Shown: positions 7,911-21,132 of the stretch, piece by piece
Layout of the letters: every line of letters starts with the position of its first letter
Position numbering within the stretch: the stretch's first letter is position 1
Virus record (IMG/VR): IMGVR_UViG_3300009450_000006
Coordinates: 1 to 21,132 of that record
DNA length: 21,132 nucleotides
Source of the DNA: a virus
Strand: one strand, 5' to 3'
Program-made: the position numbers and the translations under genes
Notes under the pieces: model-generated
Database searches by the model: none
What the model saw: only the letters and a program-made list of their open reading frames with translations
Told to the model about the DNA's origin: nothing

Positions 7911-8026
7911 GATTGTTAAATGTTTAATTATTACACATCAGCAAACTTACCCAATTTAGCGAACCTATCCAAATATTGGCGGTGAAATGTCCATAGGTAA
8001 TATTCGAGGCAGTCGAATAAGTGGCC
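7908..8026 (-). repeat. Copy 2 of 119-bp direct repeat: duplicated 3' end of TerL plus leader
   Basis: This stretch matches 8324-8442 at 109 of 119 positions with no gaps and a constant offset of 416 bp. On the minus strand it encodes the last 31 residues and stop of the terminase (GHLFDCLEYYLW..KFADV). Across these 32 codons the six differences from the intact gene are all synonymous (five third-position, one first-position Leu change). The remaining differences lie in the short leader. The copy therefore diverged as working coding sequence before it was joined here. Confidence 0.92.
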
Positions 8027-8069
8027 AATTTGTGCCGTCATTGGATGTGTAGATGTTGGGGGTTATCAT
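7965..8069 (-). pseudogene. Chimeric remnant: chaperone start fused to out-of-frame TerL end
   Basis: The ATG at 8069 overlaps the stop of the 86-aa gene as ATGA and begins MITPNIYTSNDGT, the N-terminus of the chaperone. After codon 13 the sequence joins, through AATT at 8027-8030, to a copy of the TerL 3' end read in another frame, and stops at TAG 7967-7965 after 34 codons. It is a recombination scar rather than a functional gene. If translated it would make a 34-aa peptide and could carry ribosomes toward the 69-aa gene. Confidence 0.8.
8031..8069 (-). repeat. Copy 2 of 39-bp direct repeat: duplicated start of the chaperone gene
   Basis: Matches 7666-7704 with one mismatch, offset 365 bp. 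Together with the 119-bp repeats it shows that the unit 'TerL end - small gene - chaperone start' is present twice in tandem with different small genes. Confidence 0.9.
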
Positions 8070-8326
8070 GAATGAATTTTGGTTAAATTATTATACCTTA
8101 CCATTACATCAACGCCTCTCGATTTAACCCATGCCATTTTGCATGATTTGCAAATAGATGATAGTTTGTAAATTCGATTGGCTGACAAGGCGCAAATAGC
8201 CCTGATATAATCGGCATTTAATTTCATTTCACTGCCCCTTTCTAAATAATCTTTAAGTATTTTGTCAATGCTAATAATCTGAACCTTGTCATGTCGTGCA
8301 AGGGTTGACTCTGGTTTTTTTATCAT
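8066..8326 (-). CDS. Hypothetical protein, 86 aa (cassette A between TerL and chaperone)
   Basis: A basic small protein that I do not recognise, starting MIKKPESTLARHDKVQII. It contains a charged helix (IDKILKDYLERGSEMKL), a helix ADYIRAICALSANRIYKL and a CKSC pair near residue 60 followed by a basic segment. Two cysteines alone do not make a zinc site. It starts 20 nt after the TerL stop behind a leader ending in ACAATC, and its stop overlaps the ATG of the truncated chaperone copy as ATGA. This is exactly the junction that the 69-aa gene makes with the intact chaperone. It is most simply the alternative gene for the same slot, perhaps from a sibling phage. Confidence 0.6.
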   Translation of the reverse strand: MIKKPESTLARHDKVQIISIDKILKDYLERGSEMKLNADYIRAICALSANRIYKLSSICKSCKMAWVKSRGVDVMVRYNNLTKIHS

Positions 8327-8442
8327 GATTGTTTTTGGTTTAATTATTACACATCAGCAAACTTACCCAATTTCGCAAATCTATCCAAATATTGGCGGTG
8401 AAATGTCCACAAGTAATATTCGAGGCAATCGAATAAGTGGCC
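8324..8442 (-). repeat. Copy 1 of 119-bp direct repeat: 3' end of intact TerL plus leader
   Basis: This is the partner of 7908-8026. It spans the last 31 codons and stop of the intact terminase gene and the leader of the 86-aa gene. Recombination between the two copies would delete 416 bp, including the 86-aa gene, and leave TerL intact. Confidence 0.9.
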
Positions 8443-9675
8443 TGTCAAATTATCCGGTGGCTTTTTCTCCGCATTGTCACCACGCTGGACGAGTTCCAAA
8501 TCTTGTATGAGGTATTTGCACTTGTTGCTTATTTGAATGTCGCCATGTTTGGACAGGATGGAATTAAGTAATACGATGTAATCCACTGAGTGCGGATTGG
8601 CCGAAAGTAATCGTATCTGACCATCGGATAATTTTAAATAGCCTTTAATTAGTTTCCAATTAGTCATACCCTTTTGGTGGGCAGTCCGATTCCTTCCGCT
8701 TGCATCGCCCGTAAATATCAACCTGTGGTGGTTCGGGTAGCGTGTGCTTATGCGCTGGCACAACTCCGATACGTCCGAGTTAATCAGCCTCTCTTCGCCT
8801 ATGATGCGTATCGTCTTGCGGTCGGGCGTGTGCTGGGCATAGACGCACGTCATTGGCGACACGTTGAAGTCGATACTAACGTAAACAGGCAAATGCGCAA
8901 ACTCAGCGAAATCGGCTACGTGCGCCTTGCGGGTGAACGCATAGGCATAAATTGAACTCTGTGCCGTTATGAGATGCGCCAACACTTCACGCTTGAAGGT
9001 CTGCGGGTCGAGGGTGGCTTCTAATTGCTCGATGTAGCCATCAGGCAGGTTGTGTTTATTTACGTAAGATTCAGCCTGAACAATGGCAATTCGATTTGAT
9101 TCGGTTTGGCTTGCTTCCTTGAGTTCGAGGTAATACTTGACGTTATCGGGTGGGGTGGTGGCGGTTAGGATTTTGTGAGTTAATCCAAGTCGCTTGAATG
9201 TCTGTCCACGAAGCCTTGCACGCAGACGACCTAATGCAAATTCAAAGTTTCGAATGTCACGAGTTTCATCGCATACGATCGCATCCCACTCAGAACCGTT
9301 TACGGTGTTGTAATTGTCCAAACTGGTTAGTACGCCATAGCTTCCCCAACGAAATGTTATGACGTTCTCTGAGCCAATCCGGCTGTATGGCTTGACGCCT
9401 TTCATCTGCTTGTTAATGACGTAATCAACATCAGGACGCAATCCCATTTGCGCCCATGCCGATTCAATGCCGGGCAGTGTAGCTGTCTTCATCATCGGTA
9501 CGGTGGGAGCGCAGATAAGCACCCTTGCGTTTGGTACGGACAGGAATGGAATCGACGCCATGCCAAGCATGAATGTTTTACCCACGCCCACGCCTGTCAC
9601 CATGTGCACCTCCTTCGTGTCGGTGTGGTGAAGGAGGTAGTATGCTTGTTGTTGTGCTTCGTTGAGTTCGGGCAT
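8347..9675 (-). CDS. terL: Terminase large subunit
   Basis: This is the ATPase and nuclease that drives DNA into the prohead and cuts the concatemer. Numbering from the chosen start: Walker A TGVGVGKT at residues 27-34 and Walker B AIVCDE at about 132-137. The C-terminal RNase H-like nuclease has acidic residues in VSIDFNVSP (D269), FTGDASG (D324) and HLFDCLEY (D416). At 442 aa it is a normal length. I chose the ATG at 9675 because it overlaps the stop of the 66-aa gene as TGATG, in line with the coupled junctions elsewhere in this operon. An ATG at 9696 would add seven residues (MDCIESL) and overlap more. The 3' end is duplicated at 7922-8026. Confidence 0.95.
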   Translation of the reverse strand: MPELNEAQQQAYYLLHHTDTKEVHMVTGVGVGKTFMLGMASIPFLSVPNARVLICAPTVPMMKTATLPGIESAWAQMGLRPDVDYVINKQMKGVKPYSRIGSENVITFRWGSYGVLTSLDNYNTVNGSEWDAIVCDETRDIRNFEFALGRLRARLRGQTFKRLGLTHKILTATTPPDNVKYYLELKEASQTESNRIAIVQAESYVNKHNLPDGYIEQLEATLDPQTFKREVLAHLITAQSSIYAYAFTRKAHVADFAEFAHLPVYVSIDFNVSPMTCVYAQHTPDRKTIRIIGEERLINSDVSELCQRISTRYPNHHRLIFTGDASGRNRTAHQKGMTNWKLIKGYLKLSDGQIRLLSANPHSVDYIVLLNSILSKHGDIQISNKCKYLIQDLELVQRGDNAEKKPPDNLTGHLFDCLEYYLWTFHRQYLDRFAKLGKFADV

Positions 9676-9875
9676 CAGTGATTCGATGCAATCCAATCAT
9701 CGCAACTTGCGACACGTGCGTACACGTTGCCTGCACCTTTCGATAACGAGAATGTTGAATTGGTTACGGGGTCGTGCTTGGTAACGATTATTTGCACCGT
9801 ATCGCACATCTCCATGAGTTCCGATACCTTGCGGTCGATCATGGATTCAATTATGTCTTTTTCCGGTTTGGTCAT
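9675..9875 (-). CDS. Hypothetical protein, 66 aa, between TerS and TerL
   Basis: A small protein I cannot name. It has an N-terminal helix with heptad-like spacing (DIIESMIDRKVSELMEM) and a beta-rich C-terminal half (TVQIIVTKHDP, then NSTFSLSKGAGNVYARV). It overlaps TerS by 4 nt (ATGA at 9872-9875) and TerL by 1 nt. Tight placement between the two terminase genes suggests co-production with the packaging motor, but no activity can be read from it. Confidence 0.65.
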   Translation of the reverse strand: MTKPEKDIIESMIDRKVSELMEMCDTVQIIVTKHDPVTNSTFSLSKGAGNVYARVASCDDWIASNH

Positions 9876-10282
9876 TTCTTGAGTTTGTCAATTGCTTCCT
9901 GCGATATGTTTACGGTGATGTTGGGCGGTTGGTAGGCTTCGTCCTGTTTCGATTCGACTTCAATGCGTTCACCGTAATGTCGTGGTGCTTTTTTCGATGC
10001 ACGCCATTTATAAAATTGAGCCAATTCACGCGCCCTTGTAATTTCAGCCATTGTGCCTTCCGCATCGATTAGGACTTGTTCGGCTTTATCGGAATCGGTA
10101 TCAGCACTTAATTGACGTGCCTCTTTGATACGCGCGGAATGTTCGGGAAGGTGGATGAAATCAAAGAAAACGGTCAAACTCATGCCGTATTTGCTTGCCA
10201 TTTCCCTATAACTCATTGAGTTAAGAATATCCTCGATTACTTCGGCTATATCAGGACGCGGTATTTTAATAGGCTTTGCCAT
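9872..10282 (-). CDS. terS: Terminase small subunit
   Basis: 136 aa, expected to bind the packaging site and hand DNA to TerL. Residues about 18-45 (SMSYREMASKYGMSLTVFF) form a helix-turn-helix-like segment. The later part carries AQFYKWRASKKAPRHYGER, a signature of phage small terminases in which a Y-x-W-R-A-S-K segment precedes 'P-x-x-Y-G'. The C-terminus is helical and basic (SQEAIDKLKK). It is the first gene of the leftward operon, and its stop overlaps the 66-aa gene start by 4 nt. A perfect 12-bp palindrome ends 2 nt upstream of its ATG, so transcription or translation may be controlled there. Confidence 0.82.
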   Translation of the reverse strand: MAKPIKIPRPDIAEVIEDILNSMSYREMASKYGMSLTVFFDFIHLPEHSARIKEARQLSADTDSDKAEQVLIDAEGTMAEITRARELAQFYKWRASKKAPRHYGERIEVESKQDEAYQPPNITVNISQEAIDKLKK

Positions 10283-10284
10283 GC

Positions 10285-10296
10285 CGTAAATTTACG
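10285..10296. promoter_or_regulatory. Perfect 12-bp palindrome CGTAAATTTACG before terS
   Basis: CGTAAATTTACG equals its own reverse complement and lies just upstream of the terS ATG (10282). It shares CGTAA/TTACG arms with the other words in this region, so it is probably an operator for the same protein. Confidence 0.5.
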
Positions 10297-10359
10297 AAAT
10301 AAAACGATATTTAATTTGCTTTATTTGCAAAGTTTTGATATGCAAGCAATTACATTTAT

Positions 10360-10372
10360 GGACGTAGGATAG
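10360..10372. repeat. GGACGTAGGATAG word, copy 1
   Basis: This 13-bp word recurs exactly at 10627-10639. It combines the GACGTA and GTAGGATAG elements seen across the control region. Confidence 0.6.
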
Positions 10373-10420
10373 TTCGTTGATTATCAGGTAGTTTAGGATG
10401 ATGTAACTTGAAGATTTTTT

Positions 10421-10436
10421 CATCTTACGTCCGTAA
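10421..10436. repeat. CATCTTACGTCCGTAA word
   Basis: CATCTTACGT recurs at 10581-10590 and CATCTTACG at 10649-10657. TTACG-TC-CGTAA inside it is a 12-bp palindrome with a 2-nt centre, matching the TTACG-GA-CGTAG site at 10623-10634 on the other strand. Confidence 0.6.
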
Positions 10437-10580
10437 CTATACTGAAAACCAATAGAATATAAGTATAAAATAAGATAGTATAAGATATATTTACTTTTTA
10501 AGGTATTTGTAAATTTTTTTTCGTGGCTTTTTGAAAAAAAAATTTAATAGGAAAGTTAGAGTTTGTGAAAAAATCCCCAT

Positions 10581-10590
10581 CATCTTACGT
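10581..10590. repeat. CATCTTACGT word, shorter copy
   Basis: Exact copy of the first ten bases of the word at 10421, followed by AAAAATATG instead of the CCGTAA arm, so it is a half site. Confidence 0.5.
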
Positions 10591-10622
10591 AAAAATATGT
10601 AAAGCGTTGATAATTAAATCAC

Positions 10623-10666
10623 TTACGGACGTAGGATAGATAAAAACACATCTTACGCTATCCTAC
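10623..10666. promoter_or_regulatory. Paired sites with inverted arms GTAGGATAG / CTATCCTAC
   Basis: TTACGGACGTAGGATAG (10623-10639) faces CATCTTACGCTATCCTAC (10649-10666). The nine-base arms GTAGGATAG at 10631-10639 and CTATCCTAC at 10658-10666 are exact reverse complements, 18 bp apart, ending 28 bp before the VRR-NUC ATG. This is a good candidate operator pair or hairpin controlling that gene. Confidence 0.6.
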
Positions 10667-10683
10667 ATATCTTACATATTTGT

Positions 10684-10691
10684 TACATTTG
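10684..10691 (+). promoter_or_regulatory. Possible -7 box TACATTTG before the nuclease gene
   Basis: TACATTTG matches TAnnTTTG but ends only 3 nt before the ATG at 10695, which would make the mRNA leaderless. No -33 element is visible. Listed as a weak candidate. Confidence 0.2.
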
Positions 10692-10694
10692 TGC

Positions 10695-11084
10695 ATGGAA
10701 AAGACCGAAAGTAAAATTCAGCAGGAAGCGATAATGCACATTTGGAACAAATTGCCCGAAACAAGATTGTGTTTATTTCACATACCGAACGGCATGTTCT
10801 CAAATGCTCGTGAAGGGGCAAAATTCAAGGCACAAGGCGTTATCGCAGGCGTTCCCGACCTTGTATTCGTCTGGGCAGGGGAAACGCATTACATAGAGGT
10901 TAAAACGGCAAAGGGGGTATTGAGCAAGCCACAAAAAGCCTTGCATCAAAAATTTGCTGAGCAGGGCGTATTTGTAAATGTGTGCAGAAGTTCTGAGGAA
11001 ATTATTGCGTTTGTTGCCGAATTGGTACAACGAAGTAAATCTGACGCGAACTACATCCGGGCTTCTTCTCCGTCCCCTTATTGA
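10695..11084 (+). CDS. VRR-NUC domain nuclease
   Basis: 129 aa, a complete stand-alone VRR-NUC (PD-(D/E)XK superfamily) nuclease as found in many phages. The core runs FHIPNG (residues 28-33), AKFKAQGVIAGVPDLVF with D55, YIEVKT with E68 and K70, then LSKPQKALH with Q80 and the closing GVFVNVCRSSEE. These match the catalytic D..ExK and Q of the family. In phages it is usually encoded near replicative helicases and probably cuts branched or flap DNA (family knowledge). I chose ATG 10695; a TTG at 10680 would add five residues. The last 83 bp overlap the convergent primase gene, so the two mRNAs are complementary there. Confidence 0.9.
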   Translation: MEKTESKIQQEAIMHIWNKLPETRLCLFHIPNGMFSNAREGAKFKAQGVIAGVPDLVFVWAGETHYIEVKTAKGVLSKPQKALHQKFAEQGVFVNVCRSSEEIIAFVAELVQRSKSDANYIRASSPSPY

Positions 11085-13167
11085 ATGCTAATCGGTTCAA
11101 GCATCTACCAATGCCAACTGCTGACACGCGTATCTGAGTGCGCGATTGTATTTGACTTGCGATTTCGGTCGCGGTTAGTGCGATGCAGTTCGGATCTTGT
11201 GGTTCGCCCATTTCATAATAAGTTAGTAATAGTTCCTCATTGGCATCCGGCGCGGTATTTTTCATACTAACCTTTTGCAACATATCATTTTCATACGCAT
11301 TAAGGAATGCAGATTCACCAGCACTTGTATAGAGGTGGTATGCTTCAATTAGGGCATCTGTTTTGTCAATTTTGTAATATGATTCGAGGTCAATATTCGT
11401 GCAATTAATTGGCACTATGCGCCTGTTGCTACCCTCCTGAATTATATCGGTATCATTGGAAGTACCGCAGAGCATGGCAAGTCGCTTTACATCTTCATAA
11501 TCGCGCGCGTATGCTCTTCTTAATGTGCTGGAGGACGTACCGGATACCGACTTCATGTATCGTGCATCTTGGCTCATTTTACCGCGCCATTCATCGTCGC
11601 AAATAATCCATTTCATTGACATCAGGATTTCATCATCTTGCCCTTTCGACAGGCTGGATTCCTGATAGTAGGAGCGCAATTCTTTAGGTAAAATTTTACG
11701 CCACAACTCGGTTTTACCTGTACCTATTTTGTTGCCATAAAGTACAGGCACAATAGGTGGCACTTCATCACCTAATGCGCCTGCTATAAGCCCGAGGTAG
11801 AATTTAGTCAAGAATAGTTCAACGTAGTTATCTACTACATCGCCATTATCGAGTTCACCGTTTCTGCCCTCAATACAATCAGCAATAGATTTTATGATAC
11901 CAATGGGCGTTCGGTGTGAATTTGATTCGAGAAAGGTAAGCAGTGGATTGTATGCCGTAACGCGGTCACTACGAAGGTATGTGCGTAAAAGGTCTTGCGA
12001 TATTTTCGGTTCAATACTTTTGAGGTTTATAAACATGGAGTTTTCACCGCGGTCGTCAAGTGGTTCGCCATTGTTTTCTAATCGTTTCGTAATGGCATTG
12101 AATTGAAGTTTGTAGTTAGTATTTACAAATAGTTCAATGGTATCAATACTTGTCGTACCTGCTGGCTTCAAGTCGGTTGCGTCGTATGCCTTATCTACAA
12201 TTTCTTTAACATCGGCTTCATCCATGCCTTCAAGCATGCTCATGGTGCGAATAATGCTTTCCTTTTTCTGCCCTGTTTTTTTCCCTTGCTCAACGGCCTT
12301 TATTACTCGGTTTGTTTGGCGCGAAATGGTTTGAATGCCTGCTTCTCGGCAGTGGTATAGAAACGTGCCAATATGTACACCACTACCTTTTCCTTTGAGG
12401 CATGCCGTGTATTGCTTATCGCATACTTTCGGGTTGTATTTTTCTGAATTTTCGCTTACGGCGTGAAAGTAAACGCGTCCTGCTTCATCGAAATAGTCAG
12501 ATATGGCGAAACCAATACGAAGCCATGTGTGATAGTCGCCATTGGTTATATCTATCTTGTTTTGGGCTATTTGCGAAAGTATGCTATTTAGGTCGGCATT
12601 TGGCAGAACTGCACTGGGCAGGTTTTTAGGCGTGTCTTTTTTCGGTATGTACTTTTTGAAGATATGACTTTTTTTATTTTCATAAAGGTGCGGGTCATAA
12701 GATACGAATCGCGCCCGGCTAACATCTTTGCAACTGCGATCTATGCTTATTTGGTAGGTTTGGGCGTAATACCTCTCCAATCCTTCAAATGCATCTTCAT
12801 GTTTGGCAGGGTCGATTTTAACAAGAACAGCCAAACCATTACCTCGAATGCTTTTAAAAGATGCGTAGGTGTAAATATCGCTCCATATCTTATTGGCTAC
12901 CTCAACCATTTGCTCCGGCTCTATATTGTCGATGTCGATGCAAATAAAACCTGAATGCTCAAGCAGGTTGGCTTTATTGCGTTCGGCAAATCGCCCCGAA
13001 ACGGTTGCAATGGGCATCTGCTTTTTGAGTTCAGGGTCTTGCGTTTCGCGTATCGCCATTACCTTATCCTTCCACCTGCCATCTTTTATGTATGATAGAA
13101 ATTGGTCGATAAGAATGGTCTGTTTACCTTTTGTATCTGATATTGATTTGTATATTGAAATCGTCAT
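11002..13167 (-). CDS. Primase-helicase: VirE-N/BT4734-type primase, PriCT-2-like middle, VirE-type P-loop ATPase
   Basis: 721 aa, making primers and unwinding the phage origin or fork. The N-terminal part looks like an archaeo-eukaryotic primase: FICIDIDNI (D78, D80 metal ligands), SFKSIRGNGLAVLV (105-116), and DRSCKDVSRARFVSYDP (143-159). Residues about 195-280 (YHTWLRIGFAIS.. and KGSGVHIGTFLYHCREAG) fit a PriCT-2 domain. The C-terminal ATPase has Walker A GNKIGTGKT (478-486), Walker B WIICDDEW (520-527) and the SNRRIVPI arginine segment (580-587). This matches the virulence-associated E family, a superfamily 3-like helicase. Its start overlaps the stop of the SF2 helicase gene by 4 nt, so the two are made together. 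Confidence 0.9.
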   Translation of the reverse strand: MTISIYKSISDTKGKQTILIDQFLSYIKDGRWKDKVMAIRETQDPELKKQMPIATVSGRFAERNKANLLEHSGFICIDIDNIEPEQMVEVANKIWSDIYTYASFKSIRGNGLAVLVKIDPAKHEDAFEGLERYYAQTYQISIDRSCKDVSRARFVSYDPHLYENKKSHIFKKYIPKKDTPKNLPSAVLPNADLNSILSQIAQNKIDITNGDYHTWLRIGFAISDYFDEAGRVYFHAVSENSEKYNPKVCDKQYTACLKGKGSGVHIGTFLYHCREAGIQTISRQTNRVIKAVEQGKKTGQKKESIIRTMSMLEGMDEADVKEIVDKAYDATDLKPAGTTSIDTIELFVNTNYKLQFNAITKRLENNGEPLDDRGENSMFINLKSIEPKISQDLLRTYLRSDRVTAYNPLLTFLESNSHRTPIGIIKSIADCIEGRNGELDNGDVVDNYVELFLTKFYLGLIAGALGDEVPPIVPVLYGNKIGTGKTELWRKILPKELRSYYQESSLSKGQDDEILMSMKWIICDDEWRGKMSQDARYMKSVSGTSSSTLRRAYARDYEDVKRLAMLCGTSNDTDIIQEGSNRRIVPINCTNIDLESYYKIDKTDALIEAYHLYTSAGESAFLNAYENDMLQKVSMKNTAPDANEELLLTYYEMGEPQDPNCIALTATEIASQIQSRTQIRVSAVGIGRCLNRLAFNKGTEKKPGCSSRQIYFVVPIRQQTQ

Positions 13168-14737: not shown

Positions 14738-14850
14738 AATTATGTAAATTTTTCTACCTCATTCTCAACGAGTTAAAAAAAAATGTCGGTGAGAGTGTCG
14801 GGCGTATTGTGAAAGAATTTACCTTTGAGTATTCAATTAAACAATCACAC
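14738..14850 (+). promoter_or_regulatory. Rightward promoter region, copy 1 (TACCTTTG -7 box)
   Basis: It contains TACCTTTG at 14820-14827, a match to the Bacteroidota -7 consensus TAnnTTTG, about 40 nt before the ATG at 14867. It aligns without gaps to 18094-18206 with about 66 of 100 identical bases. The best blocks are TATGTAAAnTTTTCT (14741), TCAACG, TGTCGGGCGTATTGTGAA (14796-14813) and TACCTTTGaGTATT. The shared AAACAATCAC leader follows. Because the conserved TGTCG-n-GCGTATT block sits at the same distance from the -7 box in both copies, it is probably an activator or sigma-contact site. No standard -33 TTTG is present. Confidence 0.65.
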
Positions 14851-14866
14851 TTTAAACAATTAAGTT

Positions 14867-15250
14867 ATGAAAACAACCAGAACACTTCAAGAAATCGCAT
14901 CGCACTTTGGATGCAAAGTATGGAAAGATAGCCGAGTATATCTTCCGCAATTTGGGTACAAGACCAAGAAGATGCATACCAGCGTTTACCTGTATATTCA
15001 GGATGGCGAGATAAAGGTATCAGCATTCATCGACTGCCCAAGCCAACCCTACGCATGGATTGCAAGTCAAAAAGAGCAGGTGATACAACGTGTGTACAGC
15101 GCACTCGAAGAGATGGAGCAGGAGGCATTAGAGCATGGTGGTAAGGTGCGTGTGTATGGCGAAGGTCATAACGAGGTAATTGTCGAAACGAATACACCTC
15201 CAGCACTTTTGGCTGGCAAAATGCAGGCAGATACGGATTTACTCAAGTGA
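14867..15250 (+). CDS. Hypothetical protein, 127 aa, first gene of the rightward operon
   Basis: I do not recognise this protein. It begins MKTTRTLQEIASHFGCKVWK, where TLQEIASHFGCKV could be a short winged-helix or HTH-like helix pair. A beta-rich part follows (MHTSVYLYIQDGEIKVSAFID), then a long amphipathic helix (KEQVIQRVYSALEEMEQEAL). The start follows promoter copy 1 by about 40 nt, with an A/T leader and no Shine-Dalgarno. The stop TGA overlaps the GTG start of the SNF2-type helicase as GTGA, so it is translationally tied to it. Being the first gene, it may be made early. Confidence 0.7.
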   Translation: MKTTRTLQEIASHFGCKVWKDSRVYLPQFGYKTKKMHTSVYLYIQDGEIKVSAFIDCPSQPYAWIASQKEQVIQRVYSALEEMEQEALEHGGKVRVYGEGHNEVIVETNTPPALLAGKMQADTDLLK

Positions 15251-16434
15251 ATTTACTGCCCGATCAAAAACTTGCGATTGATAAGTTGAATTGTCTGAAA
15301 GTCGGGGCGTTGTTCATGCGCCCCGGCACAGGCAAGACGCTGACTGCCGTAACGCTGGTAAACAGCACCGAAGTACCCGAAGTGATTTGGTTTACGCCAT
15401 TTCGCACCAAGGACAATCTAAGCGCAGAACTTGCCAAATCTGGACTTGTCAAAAATTGCCAAGTCATAGGAATTGAAACACTGTCCGCATCGGATAGAGA
15501 GTATCTGCGCCTATTTAACTTCGTCCAGACGCACGATTGCTTCATAGTGGTAGATGAATCGCTTAAAATCAAAAACAACGACGCTAAGCGCACGCAACGC
15601 ATAATTGAGATAGGCAAATATGCCAAGTACAAGTTGGTGCTGAATGGCACGCCAATATCGAAGAATATACTTGACATCTGGGCGCAGATGGAATTTTTAT
15701 CACCCAAGATCCTCAAGATGGATTTTGCCGAGTTTAAAAATACGTTTGTGAAATGGTCAAAAATGACAAAGTGGGTATCCGGCAGGCAGGTATCAAAAGA
15801 AATTATTCACGAGTTTACGAACATTGATTATTTATACAGCATCATTGCACCGTGTGTGTACGAATCGGATTTGTTTATGCAGGTAAAGAAAATATACAAC
15901 GAAGTCAAGTATAAAATTGCGGACGATGAGATGGAGCAGTACCAGTACCTGAAATCGCACTATCTTGATAATGAAACATTGCGATATTTGAACAACAATA
16001 TCTTCATCGAAATGACCCAGAAGATGCAACATTTGTATTGCGTATCGGAAGATAAGATTATCAAGTTAGATTCGATAATGAGCAGTGTTGAGCATGATAA
16101 AGTTTTGATTTATTGCAAGTACATTAAGAGCAGGCAGATGTTGCAGGAACTATATCCGAATGTATCTATTTTGTCGTATGGTATGCACTCGTTTGGATTG
16201 AATTTGCAAGACAAGTATATTACTATTTATTTCGACAAGACATTCGACTATGCCCAGCGTTTGCAGAGCGAACAGCGTACATATCGCACAGGTCAGAACC
16301 ATGATTGTATTTATTATGACATGACATCAAATACAGGATTAGACGTGCTGGTGAATGACAACATTAGCAGGAAGCAGGGCATGGATGAGTATTTTAGAGC
16401 AGTTAAAATTGAAGAGTTAATTAAACAAATATGA
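15247..16434 (+). CDS. SNF2-type superfamily 2 helicase (phage form)
   Basis: 395 aa with a GTG start that overlaps the previous stop by 4 nt. Helicase motifs: LLPDQKLAIDKL at the N-terminus (Q-like), MRPGTGKTL motif I (24-32), FTPFRTKDNL motif Ia, VVDES motif II (101-105, a DEAH variant), LNGTPIS motif III (132-138), YGMHSFGLNLQ motif V (about 314-324) and QRTYRTGQ motif VI (343-350, compare R-x-x-R-x-G-Q of SNF2 proteins). Small phage SNF2 helicases are usually thought to aid replication or recombination or to displace bound proteins. Its operon partners are ParB-like and PAPS-reductase-like proteins, so a role in that module is also possible. Confidence 0.88.
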   Translation: MNLLPDQKLAIDKLNCLKVGALFMRPGTGKTLTAVTLVNSTEVPEVIWFTPFRTKDNLSAELAKSGLVKNCQVIGIETLSASDREYLRLFNFVQTHDCFIVVDESLKIKNNDAKRTQRIIEIGKYAKYKLVLNGTPISKNILDIWAQMEFLSPKILKMDFAEFKNTFVKWSKMTKWVSGRQVSKEIIHEFTNIDYLYSIIAPCVYESDLFMQVKKIYNEVKYKIADDEMEQYQYLKSHYLDNETLRYLNNNIFIEMTQKMQHLYCVSEDKIIKLDSIMSSVEHDKVLIYCKYIKSRQMLQELYPNVSILSYGMHSFGLNLQDKYITIYFDKTFDYAQRLQSEQRTYRTGQNHDCIYYDMTSNTGLDVLVNDNISRKQGMDEYFRAVKIEELIKQI

Positions 16435-16964
16435 AAAGTCCAGTTTATAATGTTATTGCCGTTCCGATTGATAAAATCGAGGCAAACAATTACAATCCGA
16501 ACCATGTTGCAAAACGTGAAATGGATTTACTTTATCAATCAATTAAATGCGATGGCTACACTATGCCTGTCGTATGCTTTTATGATTCAGATAGAGATAA
16601 ATATATTATCGTTGATGGATTCCACCGATATACGATAATGCTGACCAGAAAGGATATTTACGAGCGTGAGAACGGTATGCTTCCAGTTTCGGTAATTGAG
16701 AAGGATATAAATGACCGCATGGCAAGCACGATAAGGCATAACCGAGCAAGAGGCAAGCATGAAGTTGAATTACAAGCATCCCTCGTTGGTATGCTTAAAT
16801 CGGGATGGGATGAAATGAAAATCATGAAGGAATTAGGCATGACACTGGAAGAGGTTCAGCGTTTAATTGGAATCAAAGGTATTGCATCTGAAATAATGGG
16901 CGTGCCATATTCAATTGAGCGTCAGATAGTGGATGCCGGAGAGGATATTCAAGAGGAAATATAA
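16431..16964 (+). CDS. ParB-like nuclease-fold protein (IbrB/YbdM-like)
   Basis: 177 aa. The N-terminal half is a ParB/sulfiredoxin-type domain: VIAVPIDKIEANNYNPNHV (residues 8-26), a central SIKCDGYTMPVVC, then IIVDGFHRYTIM with the family GxxR at 63-66. Such domains bind or cut nucleotides and DNA. The C-terminal half (KHEVELQASLVGMLKSGWDEMKIMKELGMTLEEVQRL) looks like a helical HTH domain. It overlaps the helicase by 4 nt and the next gene by 1 nt (TAATG). A ParB-like protein next to a PAPS-reductase-like protein is the arrangement of ibrB-ibrA and ybdM-ybdN (known gene pairs), so I read the two as one functional unit. A partition role is unlikely, since no ParA lies beside it. Confidence 0.82.
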   Translation: MKSPVYNVIAVPIDKIEANNYNPNHVAKREMDLLYQSIKCDGYTMPVVCFYDSDRDKYIIVDGFHRYTIMLTRKDIYERENGMLPVSVIEKDINDRMASTIRHNRARGKHEVELQASLVGMLKSGWDEMKIMKELGMTLEEVQRLIGIKGIASEIMGVPYSIERQIVDAGEDIQEEI

Positions 16965-18094
16965 TGGCACGCACAGCAATTAGGGGAATAGAGAATGTAT
17001 TAGATGCAACAAACAAGCGCATTGCATATCTATTCGATAATTACGACAATGTTTCATTATCATTCTCTGGAGGCAAGGATAGCACCGTATTATTTCACTT
17101 GCTCAATGAAGAAGCAAAGAAGCGTGACCGAAAGTTTATTGTTTATTTCCAAGACCAAGAAGCCGAGTATTCAGCAACAATTGAACTTGTAGAATGGGTT
17201 ATGACCCAGCCGAACGTTATACCGCTTTGGTATCAAGTGCCTATATTTATGACCAATGCTTGCAGTACAAGTCAGTTGTTTTTATGGGCATGGGGTGATG
17301 ATGAAAAGTGGGTACGAGATAAGCACCCAGTTGCAATTCACAGCATTGCAAATAAATACCCAAAACGATTCCATAAATTCAATTTATGGGTAGGTCAGAA
17401 CTTGCGTAAATTAGAGGGCAGGAGTGTATCAATTATCGGATTAAGGGCGGAGGAAAGCCCAGATAGAAGATTTGTTTTATTTGGTGAAGATTCGGAAATG
17501 TTTTGGTTGCGCAGAATAAACGAACCGCACAAGGCATATCCAATTATTGACTGGAAGTATAAAGACATTTGGAAGTATTTAATTGAAGGCAATTATAAAT
17601 ACAATCGTATTTACGACAAGATGTACATGCTGGGTCATGACCTTAGAACATTGCGTGTATCTAATTTAATTCACGAGAAGGCATTTAGGTGCTTGACCGA
17701 TTTGCAGGAACTTGAGCCTGATACATACAATAAACTTGAGGCAAGGTTGCAAGGTGTACATACGGCTTCAATTTATGCAAAAGAGGATTTAATTTACTCG
17801 ATTAAAACATTGCCTGATAATTTTAAGACATGGAAGGAATACAAGGACTTTTTATTGAATAGTATTCACCCTGACCTGTCTAAACTATTTAAATTTCAAT
17901 GGAGTAGGTTTGGCGATACTGACGACATCGGAGCATGTAAATACATGGTCAAGCGCATATTGCTTTGCGACTGGGAAGGCAATATTACATGGGCAAGAGA
18001 TAATGAATTTAATTACACGAAAGACCAGATATTACACAAGAACAAATTGAAAAAGGAGGATGAAATTATAAAGAAATGGACGGACACGCTATAA
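16964..18094 (+). CDS. PAPS-reductase-like ATP pyrophosphatase (IbrA/YbdN-like)
   Basis: 376 aa. The PP-loop SFSGGKDSTVLF (residues 33-44) binds ATP, and GLRAEESPDRR (159-169) is the second conserved element of the PAPS reductase family. The C-terminal part (NRIYDKMYMLGHDLRTLRVSNLIHEKA, and EARLQGVH) resembles DUF3440, the region paired with this domain in IbrA/YbdN. The cysteine motif of true sulfonucleotide reductases is absent, so reduction of PAPS is not expected. An adenylating or nucleic-acid-modifying reaction is likelier. A homologous ATPase domain occurs in DndC of DNA phosphorothioation (family knowledge). The gene is last in the operon starting at 14867; promoter copy 2 begins right at its stop. 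Confidence 0.85.
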   Translation: MARTAIRGIENVLDATNKRIAYLFDNYDNVSLSFSGGKDSTVLFHLLNEEAKKRDRKFIVYFQDQEAEYSATIELVEWVMTQPNVIPLWYQVPIFMTNACSTSQLFLWAWGDDEKWVRDKHPVAIHSIANKYPKRFHKFNLWVGQNLRKLEGRSVSIIGLRAEESPDRRFVLFGEDSEMFWLRRINEPHKAYPIIDWKYKDIWKYLIEGNYKYNRIYDKMYMLGHDLRTLRVSNLIHEKAFRCLTDLQELEPDTYNKLEARLQGVHTASIYAKEDLIYSIKTLPDNFKTWKEYKDFLLNSIHPDLSKLFKFQWSRFGDTDDIGACKYMVKRILLCDWEGNITWARDNEFNYTKDQILHKNKLKKEDEIIKKWTDTL

Positions 18095-18206
18095 ATTATG
18101 TAAAATTTTCTCGCTGACAATCAACGCATTGCAAAAAGTTTATGTTTATTTTGTCGTGCGTATTATGAATATAACTACCTTTGGGTATTGAAACTTTAAA
18201 CAATCA
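18094..18206 (+). promoter_or_regulatory. Rightward promoter region, copy 2 (TACCTTTG -7 box)
   Basis: Gap-free partner of 14738-14850. TACCTTTG lies at 18176-18183, TGTCGTGCGTATTATGAA at 18152-18169, and TATGTAAAATTTTCT at 18097. Spacings between the blocks equal those of copy 1 (55 nt from TATG to TGTCG, 24 nt from TGTCG to TACCTTTG). A TTTG at 18150-18153 lies 22 nt upstream of the -7 box and might serve as the -33 element. It should drive the recombination genes from 18211 onward together with the operon under copy 1. Confidence 0.65.
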
Positions 18207-19796: not shown

Positions 19797-21053
19797 ATGA
19801 GCACAGAATTAATCCAAGTCATGCAAGAGTCACCACTTGCAGAAGAAAAAAAAGATGTGGTGAAAAGCCTACTTGCACCATTTTTCGCAAAAGCCGAGGA
19901 ATGGAAATCACAAGTGGATTCAATTGAAATCACCGACCCAAGCCAAACCGACAAAATGGCACTGGCGAAAACGGGCAGGCTTCAATTAAGGCGGTACAGA
20001 TTGGATGCCGAGAAGTTGATTAAGGAACAGCGTGAAATCGTAAAGGCGAGAATGGCAGATGATGTTCTAGAGGATAAAATGCTACTCCGAAGTGGTCAAA
20101 TGGTTGTGGCTGTATTTGACAATCTCGAAACCAAGTTAGAGCACAAAGAGAAGTTTGCAGAGCGTTGGGAGGCTGAACAGCGTGAAATTCGCAGAAAGGA
20201 AAGACTTGCTATTATTGCCGAATTTGGTGTAATTGAAGTGCCCGGGCTTGCTGACTTCCCACAGGACGCATTTGATGCGTACGTAACAGGATTGCGCGCC
20301 AAAAGAGATGCTGAAATCAAGGCAGAACAGGAAAGAATTGAGGCGGCACGTAAAGAGAATTTGCATAACGACCGCAAGTCAAGACTGGCAAAATACGAGG
20401 ATTTCATACCTGAGTTTAATTCGCTTAATTTTGGCGAAATGGATGAAGCCGAGTATATCAAAATCGGGACACAGGCTAAGGCAAAGAAAGACGAATACGA
20501 TGCCGAGCAGGCCAAAATTAAGGCTGAAAACGAGAGGTTTCAAAAAGAAGCGATTAAGGCACAGGAAAGGGCAAATCAAATTAAAGTGTTATCTGCTGAT
20601 AGGTTTAGAAAATTGCAATCACTTGGATTCACCTACCCTTTTGATGATTTAGGAGAAATGCCAGAACCCCATTTCAACCAAATGGCCCAAGAGCATTTAA
20701 AAGAATTTACAGCAAAAGAATTAAAAGCCGAAAAATTACGCAAAGAGAATGAAGCAATCCAGGCGAAATTGAAAGCCGAAGCCGATGCCAAATTAAAGGC
20801 AGAGCAAGAAAAGGAGGATGGATCGATGAAGGCTTATGGGGCGGAGTCGACGTTGCGATGCAACTTGCAACATGAGGGATTGCGGCGCACACGCATGGTG
20901 CTTGCTACTCGCTGGCGGCACCCCCTCACGTTGGATTGCACCCTCGACCCTGTGCCCTGCGGGGCGGCATGCCGCGGCGCTTGCGCGCGGGGCTTTTGCG
21001 CGGCCTCTCTACACCACACACCCACGCGCACACTCACCATACCTAGGGTCTAG
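19797..21053 (+). CDS. Long coiled-coil phage protein (DUF1351-like), C-terminal part replaced by foreign sequence
   Basis: ATG at 19797 behind an AT leader, 11 nt after the exonuclease stop. Residues 1 to about 340 are charged and strongly helical: MALAKTGRLQLRRYRLDAEKLIKEQRE near the start, then alternating E/K/R-A blocks (EAARKENLHNDRKSRLAKYEDF; KAKKDEYDAEQAKIKAENERF). Such proteins accompany recombination genes in many phages; DUF1351 is the nearest family I know, and the match is by appearance. From about residue 342 (position 20820) the frame enters 68% GC DNA and the protein becomes Cys/Arg/Thr/His-rich without coiled coil, up to TAG 21051-21053. The native end is therefore probably missing, and the last 77 residues are not part of this protein. 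Confidence 0.7.
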   Translation: MSTELIQVMQESPLAEEKKDVVKSLLAPFFAKAEEWKSQVDSIEITDPSQTDKMALAKTGRLQLRRYRLDAEKLIKEQREIVKARMADDVLEDKMLLRSGQMVVAVFDNLETKLEHKEKFAERWEAEQREIRRKERLAIIAEFGVIEVPGLADFPQDAFDAYVTGLRAKRDAEIKAEQERIEAARKENLHNDRKSRLAKYEDFIPEFNSLNFGEMDEAEYIKIGTQAKAKKDEYDAEQAKIKAENERFQKEAIKAQERANQIKVLSADRFRKLQSLGFTYPFDDLGEMPEPHFNQMAQEHLKEFTAKELKAEKLRKENEAIQAKLKAEADAKLKAEQEKEDGSMKAYGAESTLRCNLQHEGLRRTRMVLATRWRHPLTLDCTLDPVPCGAACRGACARGFCAASLHHTPTRTLTIPRV

Positions 21054-21132
21054 GGCCTTATAAAAAAACTTGTAAGACTTAAAAAGCCCCGCCTGCCCAG
21101 TGCATTAGGCTTGAGCGGTGCGTGCGGTGTGG
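20820..21132. other. GC-rich segment unlike the rest (probable chimera or foreign DNA)
   Basis: The last 313 bp change sharply in composition. Positions 20881-21060 are about 68% GC, whereas 20581-20640 are 35%. The segment holds the palindrome GCGGCATGCCGC at 20964-20975 and a CTAGGGTCTAGGG doublet near 21044. No phage gene or known mobile-element end is recognisable. Its position at the edge of the sequence suits a contig-end misassembly. Insertion of foreign DNA or a phage-host junction is possible. Confidence 0.6.

Follow-up and report, generated by a model that had tools for sequence, protein, structure and literature searches.

An IbrA/IbrB gene pair tied to a SNF2-type helicase in phages and prophages: a plausible DNA modification module

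Results

An operon of four overlapping genes

The window analysed here, the whole 21,132 bases of IMG/VR virus record IMGVR_UViG_3300009450_000006, comes from a virus of Bacteroidota bacteria and carries an operon that couples a SNF2-type helicase gene to the genes for IbrB, a ParB-like protein, and IbrA, a PP-loop protein resembling the reductases of 3'-phosphoadenosine 5'-phosphosulfate (PAPS) (Table 1). A first-pass annotation, made from the letters alone, had drawn these three open reading frames (ORFs) with overlaps of 4 and 1 nt, and its placement is exact to the base. It had concluded that the three are made together; the overlaps stand, but a gene immediately upstream had been missed. 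The first gene overlaps the helicase gene by 4 nt, the helicase gene that of IbrB by 4 nt and the IbrB gene that of IbrA by 1 nt. The unit is one of four coupled genes rather than three, and because these overlap, their joint transcription or translation is likely. The product of the first gene matches the profile of a small-protein family that we call K2 (E 6e-39; the profile includes close relatives of the window phage) and is matched by neither Pfam nor PHROGs at E < 0.01.

Table 1. Positions of the operon genes and of two promoter-like elements in the window
Feature	Position	Strand	Remarks and basis
Family K2 small protein, 127 aa	14867..15250	+	First gene of the operon; ORF list
SNF2/Rad54-type SF2 helicase or translocase, 395 aa	15247..16434	+	GTG start; ORF list, Pfam, PHROGs
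IbrB, ParB-like NTP-binding domain and helix-turn-helix, 177 aa	16431..16964	+	ORF list, Pfam, PHROGs
IbrA, PP-loop ATP pyrophosphatase (PAPS-reductase-like) with DUF3440, 376 aa	16964..18094	+	ORF list, Pfam, PHROGs
TACCTTTG box ahead of the first gene	14820..14827	+	Weak; resembles a Bacteroidota -7 element
Promoter-like TTTG-N22-TACCTTTG	18150..18183	+	Just past the operon, ahead of the next gene

The helicase and IbrB

The helicase belongs to superfamily 2 (SF2). It matches SNF2-rel_dom in Pfam (E 1e-10, 41.7 bits, cut-off 24.9) and the helicase family phrog_62 in PHROGs (2e-59), and displays the motifs GTGKT, DES..KIKN, NGTP, GLNLQ and QR.YRTGQ. A profile of its subfamily aligns with the archaeal SNF2/Rad54 structure 1z63 over positions 25-385 (E 1.6e-28). 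G27, K30, D103, E104 and Q340 are unchanged in 40/40 aligned sequences and the motif VI arginines R344 and R347 are kept in 38/40, so that the Walker A motif, the DE box and the motif VI arginines of a SNF2-type SF2 helicase are all present. The core SF2 motifs are shared with other SNF2/Rad54-type helicases (Sulfolobus-type 1z63, phrog_62); unlike these, the window protein is a minimal core of 395 amino acids (aa) with no nuclease or chromatin domain, and is tied to IbrA/IbrB. Annotated phage records matching it number 713, all below 60% identity and most far lower.

In IbrB, the ParB_N match (E 2.6e-4, 21.4 bits) falls under its Pfam cut-off of 26.3, while phrog_2159, a ParB-like family, is matched at 1e-83. 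The protein contains the motifs DGFHR and TIRHNRARGKH, followed by a helix-turn-helix of the KorB/Spo0J type; no C-terminal dimerisation domain was seen. Residues D62, G63, H65 and R66 of DGFHR are invariant in 36/36 aligned sequences. The first-pass annotation had noticed this motif and likened it to DGQHR of DndB; the motif is there, but it belongs to the general ParB/Srx fold and gives no special link to DndB. An AlphaFold model of IbrB (mean predicted local distance difference test score, pLDDT, 77.6) finds ParB 7bm8 as its best Foldseek match (E 9e-8), and the structures it matches comprise KorB, ParB, Noc, Srx and SerK. Aligned with VIA-align, the model superposes on KorB 8qa9 with Z 15.2 (root-mean-square deviation, rmsd, 6.3; 153 residues aligned), on ParB 7bnk with Z 12.2 (rmsd 2.1, 95 aligned) and, in its second half, on the KorB DNA-binding domain 1r71 with Z 8.9 (rmsd 1.6, 56 aligned). 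As modelled, IbrB has the nucleoside triphosphate (NTP)-binding fold of ParB. The identity of a ParABS partition ParB was considered and rejected on its score against the ParB/RepB/Spo0J family (TIGR00180, 22 bits against a cut-off of 58.45), though the NTPase fold is common to both; a Pfam scan of ten window ORFs, which was not aimed at parA in particular, revealed no parA.

IbrA, a PP-loop protein without a conserved cysteine

PAPS_reduct (E 3.8e-17, 63.3 bits, cut-off 22.5) and, after it, DUF3440 (E 1.1e-9, 38.8 bits, cut-off 25) were found by Pfam in IbrA, and the PAPS reductase family phrog_2302 by PHROGs (6e-118). Both domains in one protein beside a ParB-like gene is the arrangement of the E. 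coli pairs IbrA/IbrB (of prophages) and YbdN/YbdM, and the assignment of the window genes to this type, already made at first pass, is upheld by the domains and by homology to E. coli phage PhiR5_2 (IbrA 33.4% identity, E 1e-34; IbrB 43%). The PhiR5_2 pair differs from that of the window in that no helicase of the subfamily occurs in the 7.7 kb around it. For E. coli IbrA/IbrB, the role proposed is prophage gene activation.

The motifs of IbrA are SGGKDS, DxE, GxRxxESxxR and YPI.DW. Its PP-loop is intact, as the first-pass annotation had said: among 50 aligned sequences S35, G37, K38, D39 and S40 are invariant and G36 is kept in 47/50, and D64, E66, R161, E164, S165, R168, D196 and R231 are likewise invariant in 50/50. 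The reductase cysteine reported missing is indeed lacking, for the alignment has no conserved cysteine at all; its highest Cys column holds 32/50 rows, and the window residues Cys 100, 243, 325 and 335 are not kept as Cys in relatives. CysH enzymes have a conserved, C-terminal catalytic cysteine, which IbrA does not possess, and its score against the CysH family (NCBIfam TIGR00434) is 35.3 bits where the cut-off is 165.1. DndC and BrxP models match IbrA weakly, the DndC score being 16.9 bits against 290.4. The lack of a conserved cysteine argues against reduction or a Dnd-type sulfur transfer, and both chemistries appear weakened by the alignment.

The AlphaFold model of IbrA (pLDDT 86.9) has CysH 6vpu as its best Foldseek match (E 9e-8). 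VIA-align places human FAD synthase 8ron (Z 15.5, rmsd 3.2, 173 aligned) level with 4bwv, of the adenosine 5'-phosphosulfate (APS)/PAPS reductases (Z 15.3, rmsd 3.1, 181 aligned). The core fold is thus common to FAD synthase/FMN adenylyltransferase, the APS/PAPS reductases and IbrA, which differs from them in its DUF3440 C-terminal region, the missing reductase cysteine and its partners. DndC and SspD structures are not among the PDB matches listed, which has no bearing either way.

The helicase subfamily keeps company with the pair

To the 80 best of 537 relatives of the helicase in viral contigs were added 75 from genomes, making 155 helicase-anchored loci. The helicase ORF was recovered in 154, with both partners near in 139/154; all 15 misses except one (L225) end less than 2.5 kb downstream of the helicase. 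Where at least 2.5 kb is available downstream, IbrA and IbrB are both present in 125/126 loci, or 49/50 after helicases >62% identical had been removed, which bears out the earlier proposal that the trio belongs together; the break-up without co-occurrence that the first-pass annotation had named as its refutation is not seen for the helicase. In the 139 trio loci the order is helicase-IbrA-IbrB in 122 and helicase-IbrB-IbrA in 16 (one is ambiguous), and in 111 of them the helicase overlaps the gene that follows; in Fusobacterium phage phiFN37 the order is IbrA-IbrB-x-helicase. By their record titles, the trio loci in genomes belong to Bacteroidota, Bacillota, Verrucomicrobiota, Alpha- and Gammaproteobacteria, Nocardia and Victivallis. 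Such conservation across many bacterial phyla suggests a so far uncharacterised enzyme system for marking phage DNA chemically.

The dependence runs one way. Among 80 IbrA-anchored loci (the best of 321 relatives in viral contigs, some of them short), 15 include the helicase, 63 are limited to IbrA and IbrB and two to IbrA; as the pair occurs without the helicase (65/80), it is the helicase that depends on the pair and not the reverse. The trio as a unit therefore stands in part: the helicase keeps its pair, but the assembly is divisible. The phages' own annotations call the two proteins IbrA and IbrB, and annotated phage records match them in almost equal number (216 and 220), and the main genera each give the same number for both (Flavobacterium 90/90, Mycobacterium 55/55, Streptococcus 21/21). 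Across 16 phage loci (L002-L017) the helicase subfamily occurs in six, each time beside the pair: two Flavobacterium types, two Streptococcus phages, phiFN37 and one Listeria-labelled contig. In 50 dereplicated trios, sequence distances correlate between IbrA and IbrB with r 0.70, between helicase and IbrA with 0.20 and between helicase and IbrB with 0.26; of 2000 permutations, none, none and two, respectively, reached the observed value. By these sequence comparisons, the core is the IbrA/IbrB pair, to which the helicase subfamily is linked, though it is swapped more freely. One prophage region (L178:1159-2837 and 7992-11414; L044 is alike) holds two IbrA/IbrB pairs, one of them with a helicase.

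Accessory neighbours

Upstream of the helicase lies one of the small proteins K1, K2, K5 or K6 in 111/130 loci with at least 1.5 kb upstream, and K2, the family of the window, occurs within 1.5 kb in 31/130. That the four form a single family was considered and rejected, as hhalign joins K1 and K5 alone (E 7e-7, probability 92) and leaves K2 and K6 unlinked to the others. No match to K1, K5 or K6 at E < 1 was found in the six frames of the window. K6 (approximately 390 aa with a Cys-rich N-terminus, for example L240:6787-7980; 21 ORFs match its profile) precedes the helicase in clostridial loci and in others, and its FRW..W repeats recall a candidate HARP-like domain, for which Pfam gave no match.

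Group-transfer enzymes recur near the pair. A GNAT acyltransferase family (Acetyltransf_7, E 4e-7) sits between IbrA and IbrB in many loci, an S-adenosylmethionine (SAM) methyltransferase family, K10, is near the pair in 14/65 pair-only loci, and in Microbacterium phage Hendrix a glycosyltransferase, a methyltransferase, an acetyltransferase and IbrA stand in a row. Family profiles of the GNAT, SAM methyltransferase and other extra enzymes matched none of the window ORFs. In one locus (L231:2960-4696) IbrA and GNAT are naturally fused, with GNAT at the IbrA C-terminus. A second ParB, like family K4, was also considered as a trio member and rejected: it accompanies 22/65 pair-only loci but only 6/161 trio loci (L001 and the window included), and thus belongs to the pair-only type. 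Raw K4 counts were not used, because the K4 profile also matches IbrB. In phiFN37 (L014:3713-10459), a few genes beyond the helicase, a ParB, a tRNA-guanine transglycosylase (TGT) and a queuosine transporter follow; this phage possibly carries two DNA-modification cassettes side by side.

A cassette slot in cluster B mycobacteriophages

A terminase search for relatives of mycobacteriophage Athena, of which five of the 60 listed were examined, yielded the genomes compared here. Athena has the order ParB1, two small ORFs, IbrA, IbrB, terminase. In LizLemon (Rosebushvirus), ParB1 is followed by TGT, QueC, QueD, QueE, FolE and the terminase; in Funsized by a QueF-like protein, DpdA, QueC, QueD, QueE, FolE, adenylate kinase and the terminase; in Lolalove by a Tet_JBP oxygenase (Pfam E 5.5e-6, under its cut-off), an amino acid:DNA transferase (E 4.5e-9), adenylate kinase and the terminase; and in Gordonia phage NHagos by a GNAT/ABC-like protein, a formyltransferase-like protein and the terminase. 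Suffolk has no cassette before its terminase. Athena and the four carriers have homologous ParB1 proteins (42-67% pairwise), and the Athena terminase is 52-63% identical to the terminases of the four mycobacteriophages (NHagos not compared). The Athena pair thus occupies the slot that holds known or predicted DNA-modifying genes in sister phages, which favours DNA modification. In Rosebush, dPreQ0 replaces approximately 28% of G, according to the accessible part of PMC6884629. The Athena terminase itself (L009:2696-5233) has 846 aa against approximately 565 in its relatives and aligns with them in two pieces, as an intein or other insertion would.

Discussion

A plausible route to modified phage DNA

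We propose, tentatively and as a reading slightly more likely wrong than right, that the operon is an ATP-dependent module for modifying bases of phage DNA with the help of the helicase. The observation with which we began is confirmed and widened, and modification is a plausible reading of it. From the slot of IbrA/IbrB, their linkage across phyla, their partners, motifs and predicted folds, we infer that IbrA adenylates DNA and that IbrB delivers it. IbrA would use ATP to adenylate a site in DNA, most likely a base; a small group would then be attached to the activated position, probably via nitrogen or by acyl or adenylyl transfer, sulfur chemistry being less likely because no IbrA cysteine is conserved. 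IbrB, with its NTP-binding fold and helix-turn-helix, would serve as the DNA-loading or specificity partner of IbrA, while the SNF2-type helicase and the small upstream protein would move along or open the duplex so that the enzyme could work genome-wide. The modification would shield phage DNA from host nucleases. A narrower version, in which helicase and accessory carry a Cys-free PP-loop enzyme and a ParB-like NTPase along DNA to make a modification other than 7-deazaguanine, methylation, glycosylation or phosphorothioate, seems to us rather doubtful.

Several observations lend themselves to the modification reading: GNAT and methyltransferase enzymes recur near the pair, and the modelled fold of IbrA is tied between FAD synthases, which perform adenylyl transfer, and APS/PAPS reductases. 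In the accessible parts of two papers, a ParB-like protein, DpdB, is the partner of the DNA modifier DpdA (PMC12839542) and ParBc genes lie beside the carboxymethylcytosine enzyme CmoX (PMC12783734). The 7-deazaguanine cassettes of phages (ParB/DpdB with DpdA and QueCDE/FolE) likewise couple a ParB-like protein to a base-modifying enzyme, and that of LizLemon sits in the very slot of the Athena pair; unlike them, the IbrA/IbrB system employs a PP-loop enzyme and not a TGT, lacks preQ0 genes, and has in IbrB a second ParB distinct from ParB1.

Other points weigh against modification. We know of no modified nucleotide in any IbrA/IbrB phage, and PP-loop enzymes often act on tRNA. The only published effect known to us, from the title of Sandt 2002, is that IbrA and IbrB reportedly activate prophage eib genes. 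The cassette swap concerns a pair-only phage devoid of the helicase, and trio phages are not in that slot; the methyltransferase family K10 is found in 0/160 trio loci. Since distances between helicase and pair correlate weakly, the helicase may be exchanged between pairs or serve them loosely. The sole helicase locus without a pair (L225:7562-9317, Succinivibrio) retains a K5 accessory, and in it two closely similar ORFs of 103 aa follow the helicase.

Competing explanations

The first-pass annotation had supposed a DNA-acting system, be it a modification, an anti-restriction activity or a superinfection defence. Evidence from phage cassettes favours the first, no evidence was found for superinfection defence, and that interpretation as a whole is partly supported. 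A defensive or anti-defensive role, in which the SNF2 translocase and IbrA/IbrB would restrict competing phages or block a host nuclease, is in our estimate unlikely. SNF2-type helicases do act in Zorya, Dpd and BREX type 3, and viral contigs often carry the module, which occurs in genomes as well, but Pfam and PHROGs matched no nuclease domain in any of the four genes. Defence systems in PADLOC gave partial matches to the SNF2 core or PP-loop only and were set aside as identities. The weak helicase matches to DpdE (E 2e-12, 43.6 bits) and ZorD (E 5e-12) span approximately 80 residues and, by sequence, cover the generic SNF2 core, far under family cut-off (41.5 bits for ZorD, NCBIfam NF041790, against 1500).

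Rather unlikely, too, is that IbrA/IbrB regulate gene expression, with IbrB as a ParB-like clamp relieving silencing, IbrA setting its activity and the helicase clearing the template. Several phages name the protein 'co-activator of prophage gene expression', the title of Sandt 2002 concerns eib gene activation, IbrB has a KorB-like helix-turn-helix, and ybdNM is repressed by YbdO/CitR in the accessible part of PMC9068703; yet regulation alone leaves the intact PP-loop ATP-pyrophosphatase and the GNAT and methyltransferase neighbours unexplained, and the window offers no evident target gene. An IbrA acting like TilS or TtuA on tRNA, or on other RNA, and so sustaining translation, is improbable. 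Its modelled fold does align with TilS/MesJ 1ni5 (Z 12.0, rmsd 3.3, 162 aligned) and NcsA 6scy (Z 11.6, rmsd 4.7, 184 aligned), but it stands beside a SNF2 helicase of DNA type and a ParB that carries a DNA-binding helix-turn-helix, and in cluster B phages the module replaces DNA-modifying genes.

Phosphorothioation of DNA by a pared-down system of Dnd/Ssp type, in which host IscS would donate the sulfur, finds some support in the weak DndC profile matches. Dnd/Ssp (DndC, DndB) and BrxP of BREX type 4 similarly unite a PP-loop enzyme, a ParB-superfamily protein and an ATPase partner; the accessible parts of PMC10853773 and PMC11662687 place DndB in the ParB superfamily and describe DndC as a PP-loop enzyme. 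Against this, the iron-sulfur cluster of DndC requires C280 (PMC11662687, in the same part), whereas no IbrA cysteine is conserved; scores are far under cut-off, no DndD/DndE-like partner was seen, and neither a desulfurase nor DndD nor DndE occurs among the recurring neighbour families identified, which renders this route very improbable. Even less credit can be given to plain neighbourhood, namely an ordinary replication helicase lying beside a moron pair. Genes lie tightly packed in phage genomes, the co-divergence of helicase and pair is weak and phrog_62 is a general helicase family, but the account is largely refuted by the 49/50 dereplicated loci over several phyla in which the trio is kept while its order changes. 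More distant helicases of the kind lack the association: 366 records of Pseudomonas phages have a low-identity match to the helicase, whereas the nine names left unlisted for IbrA share only 10 records.

Relation to earlier work

The names IbrA and IbrB are already in print; no description of the helicase-IbrA-IbrB trio was found in open-licence PMC papers, as far as their accessible text extends. In the accessible part of PMC4541368, IbrA and IbrB of the F. columnare phage FCL-2 are reported together with two upstream ORFs common to a host genome, and the idea of IbrA/IbrB as possible virulence factors is relayed; that part makes no mention of restriction or digestion, and no measurement of modified nucleosides in FCL-2 virion DNA was found. 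IbrA/IbrB are listed in glacier phages (PMC4490671), and a survey of the ParB fold (PMC12704722) does not mention PAPS, each in the accessible portion of the paper.

Pairs of the IbrA/IbrB kind abound in phages and are on record from E. coli. With the trio, a third partner is established, and the swap in cluster B phages points to DNA as the likely substrate. Phages suited to pursuing this are already in culture: FCL-2 for the trio, and Athena versus Suffolk for the pair. A new modification, if found, would account for a gene pair that is widespread and give phages a further route past restriction.

Other features of the window

The TACCTTTG box ahead of the operon resembles the -7 element of Bacteroidota promoters. 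Its 8-mer occurs 19 times in the window where 21 are expected, that is, not above chance. The pattern TTTGN{17,24}TANNTTTG has no match at this box, and a promoter at the operon start marked by TANNTTTG was rejected, as TANNTTTG alone is not above chance in the window. The full pattern has five matches in the window against 1.27 expected, a number reached in 0/100 shuffles, and the promoter-like element past the operon likely marks its end.

At the left of the window, positions 1-2907 contain no listed ORF of more than 75 aa. Recoding was considered for this stretch and dropped, since a single open minus-strand frame spans it and runs off the left end; this frame is probably a truncated long structural gene. 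The right end (20820-21132) is GC-rich, with 55% GC over 20701-21132, and had no blastn match to the fetched loci. There the tail of the ORF at 19797-21053 changes character, and this may be a chimeric contig end.

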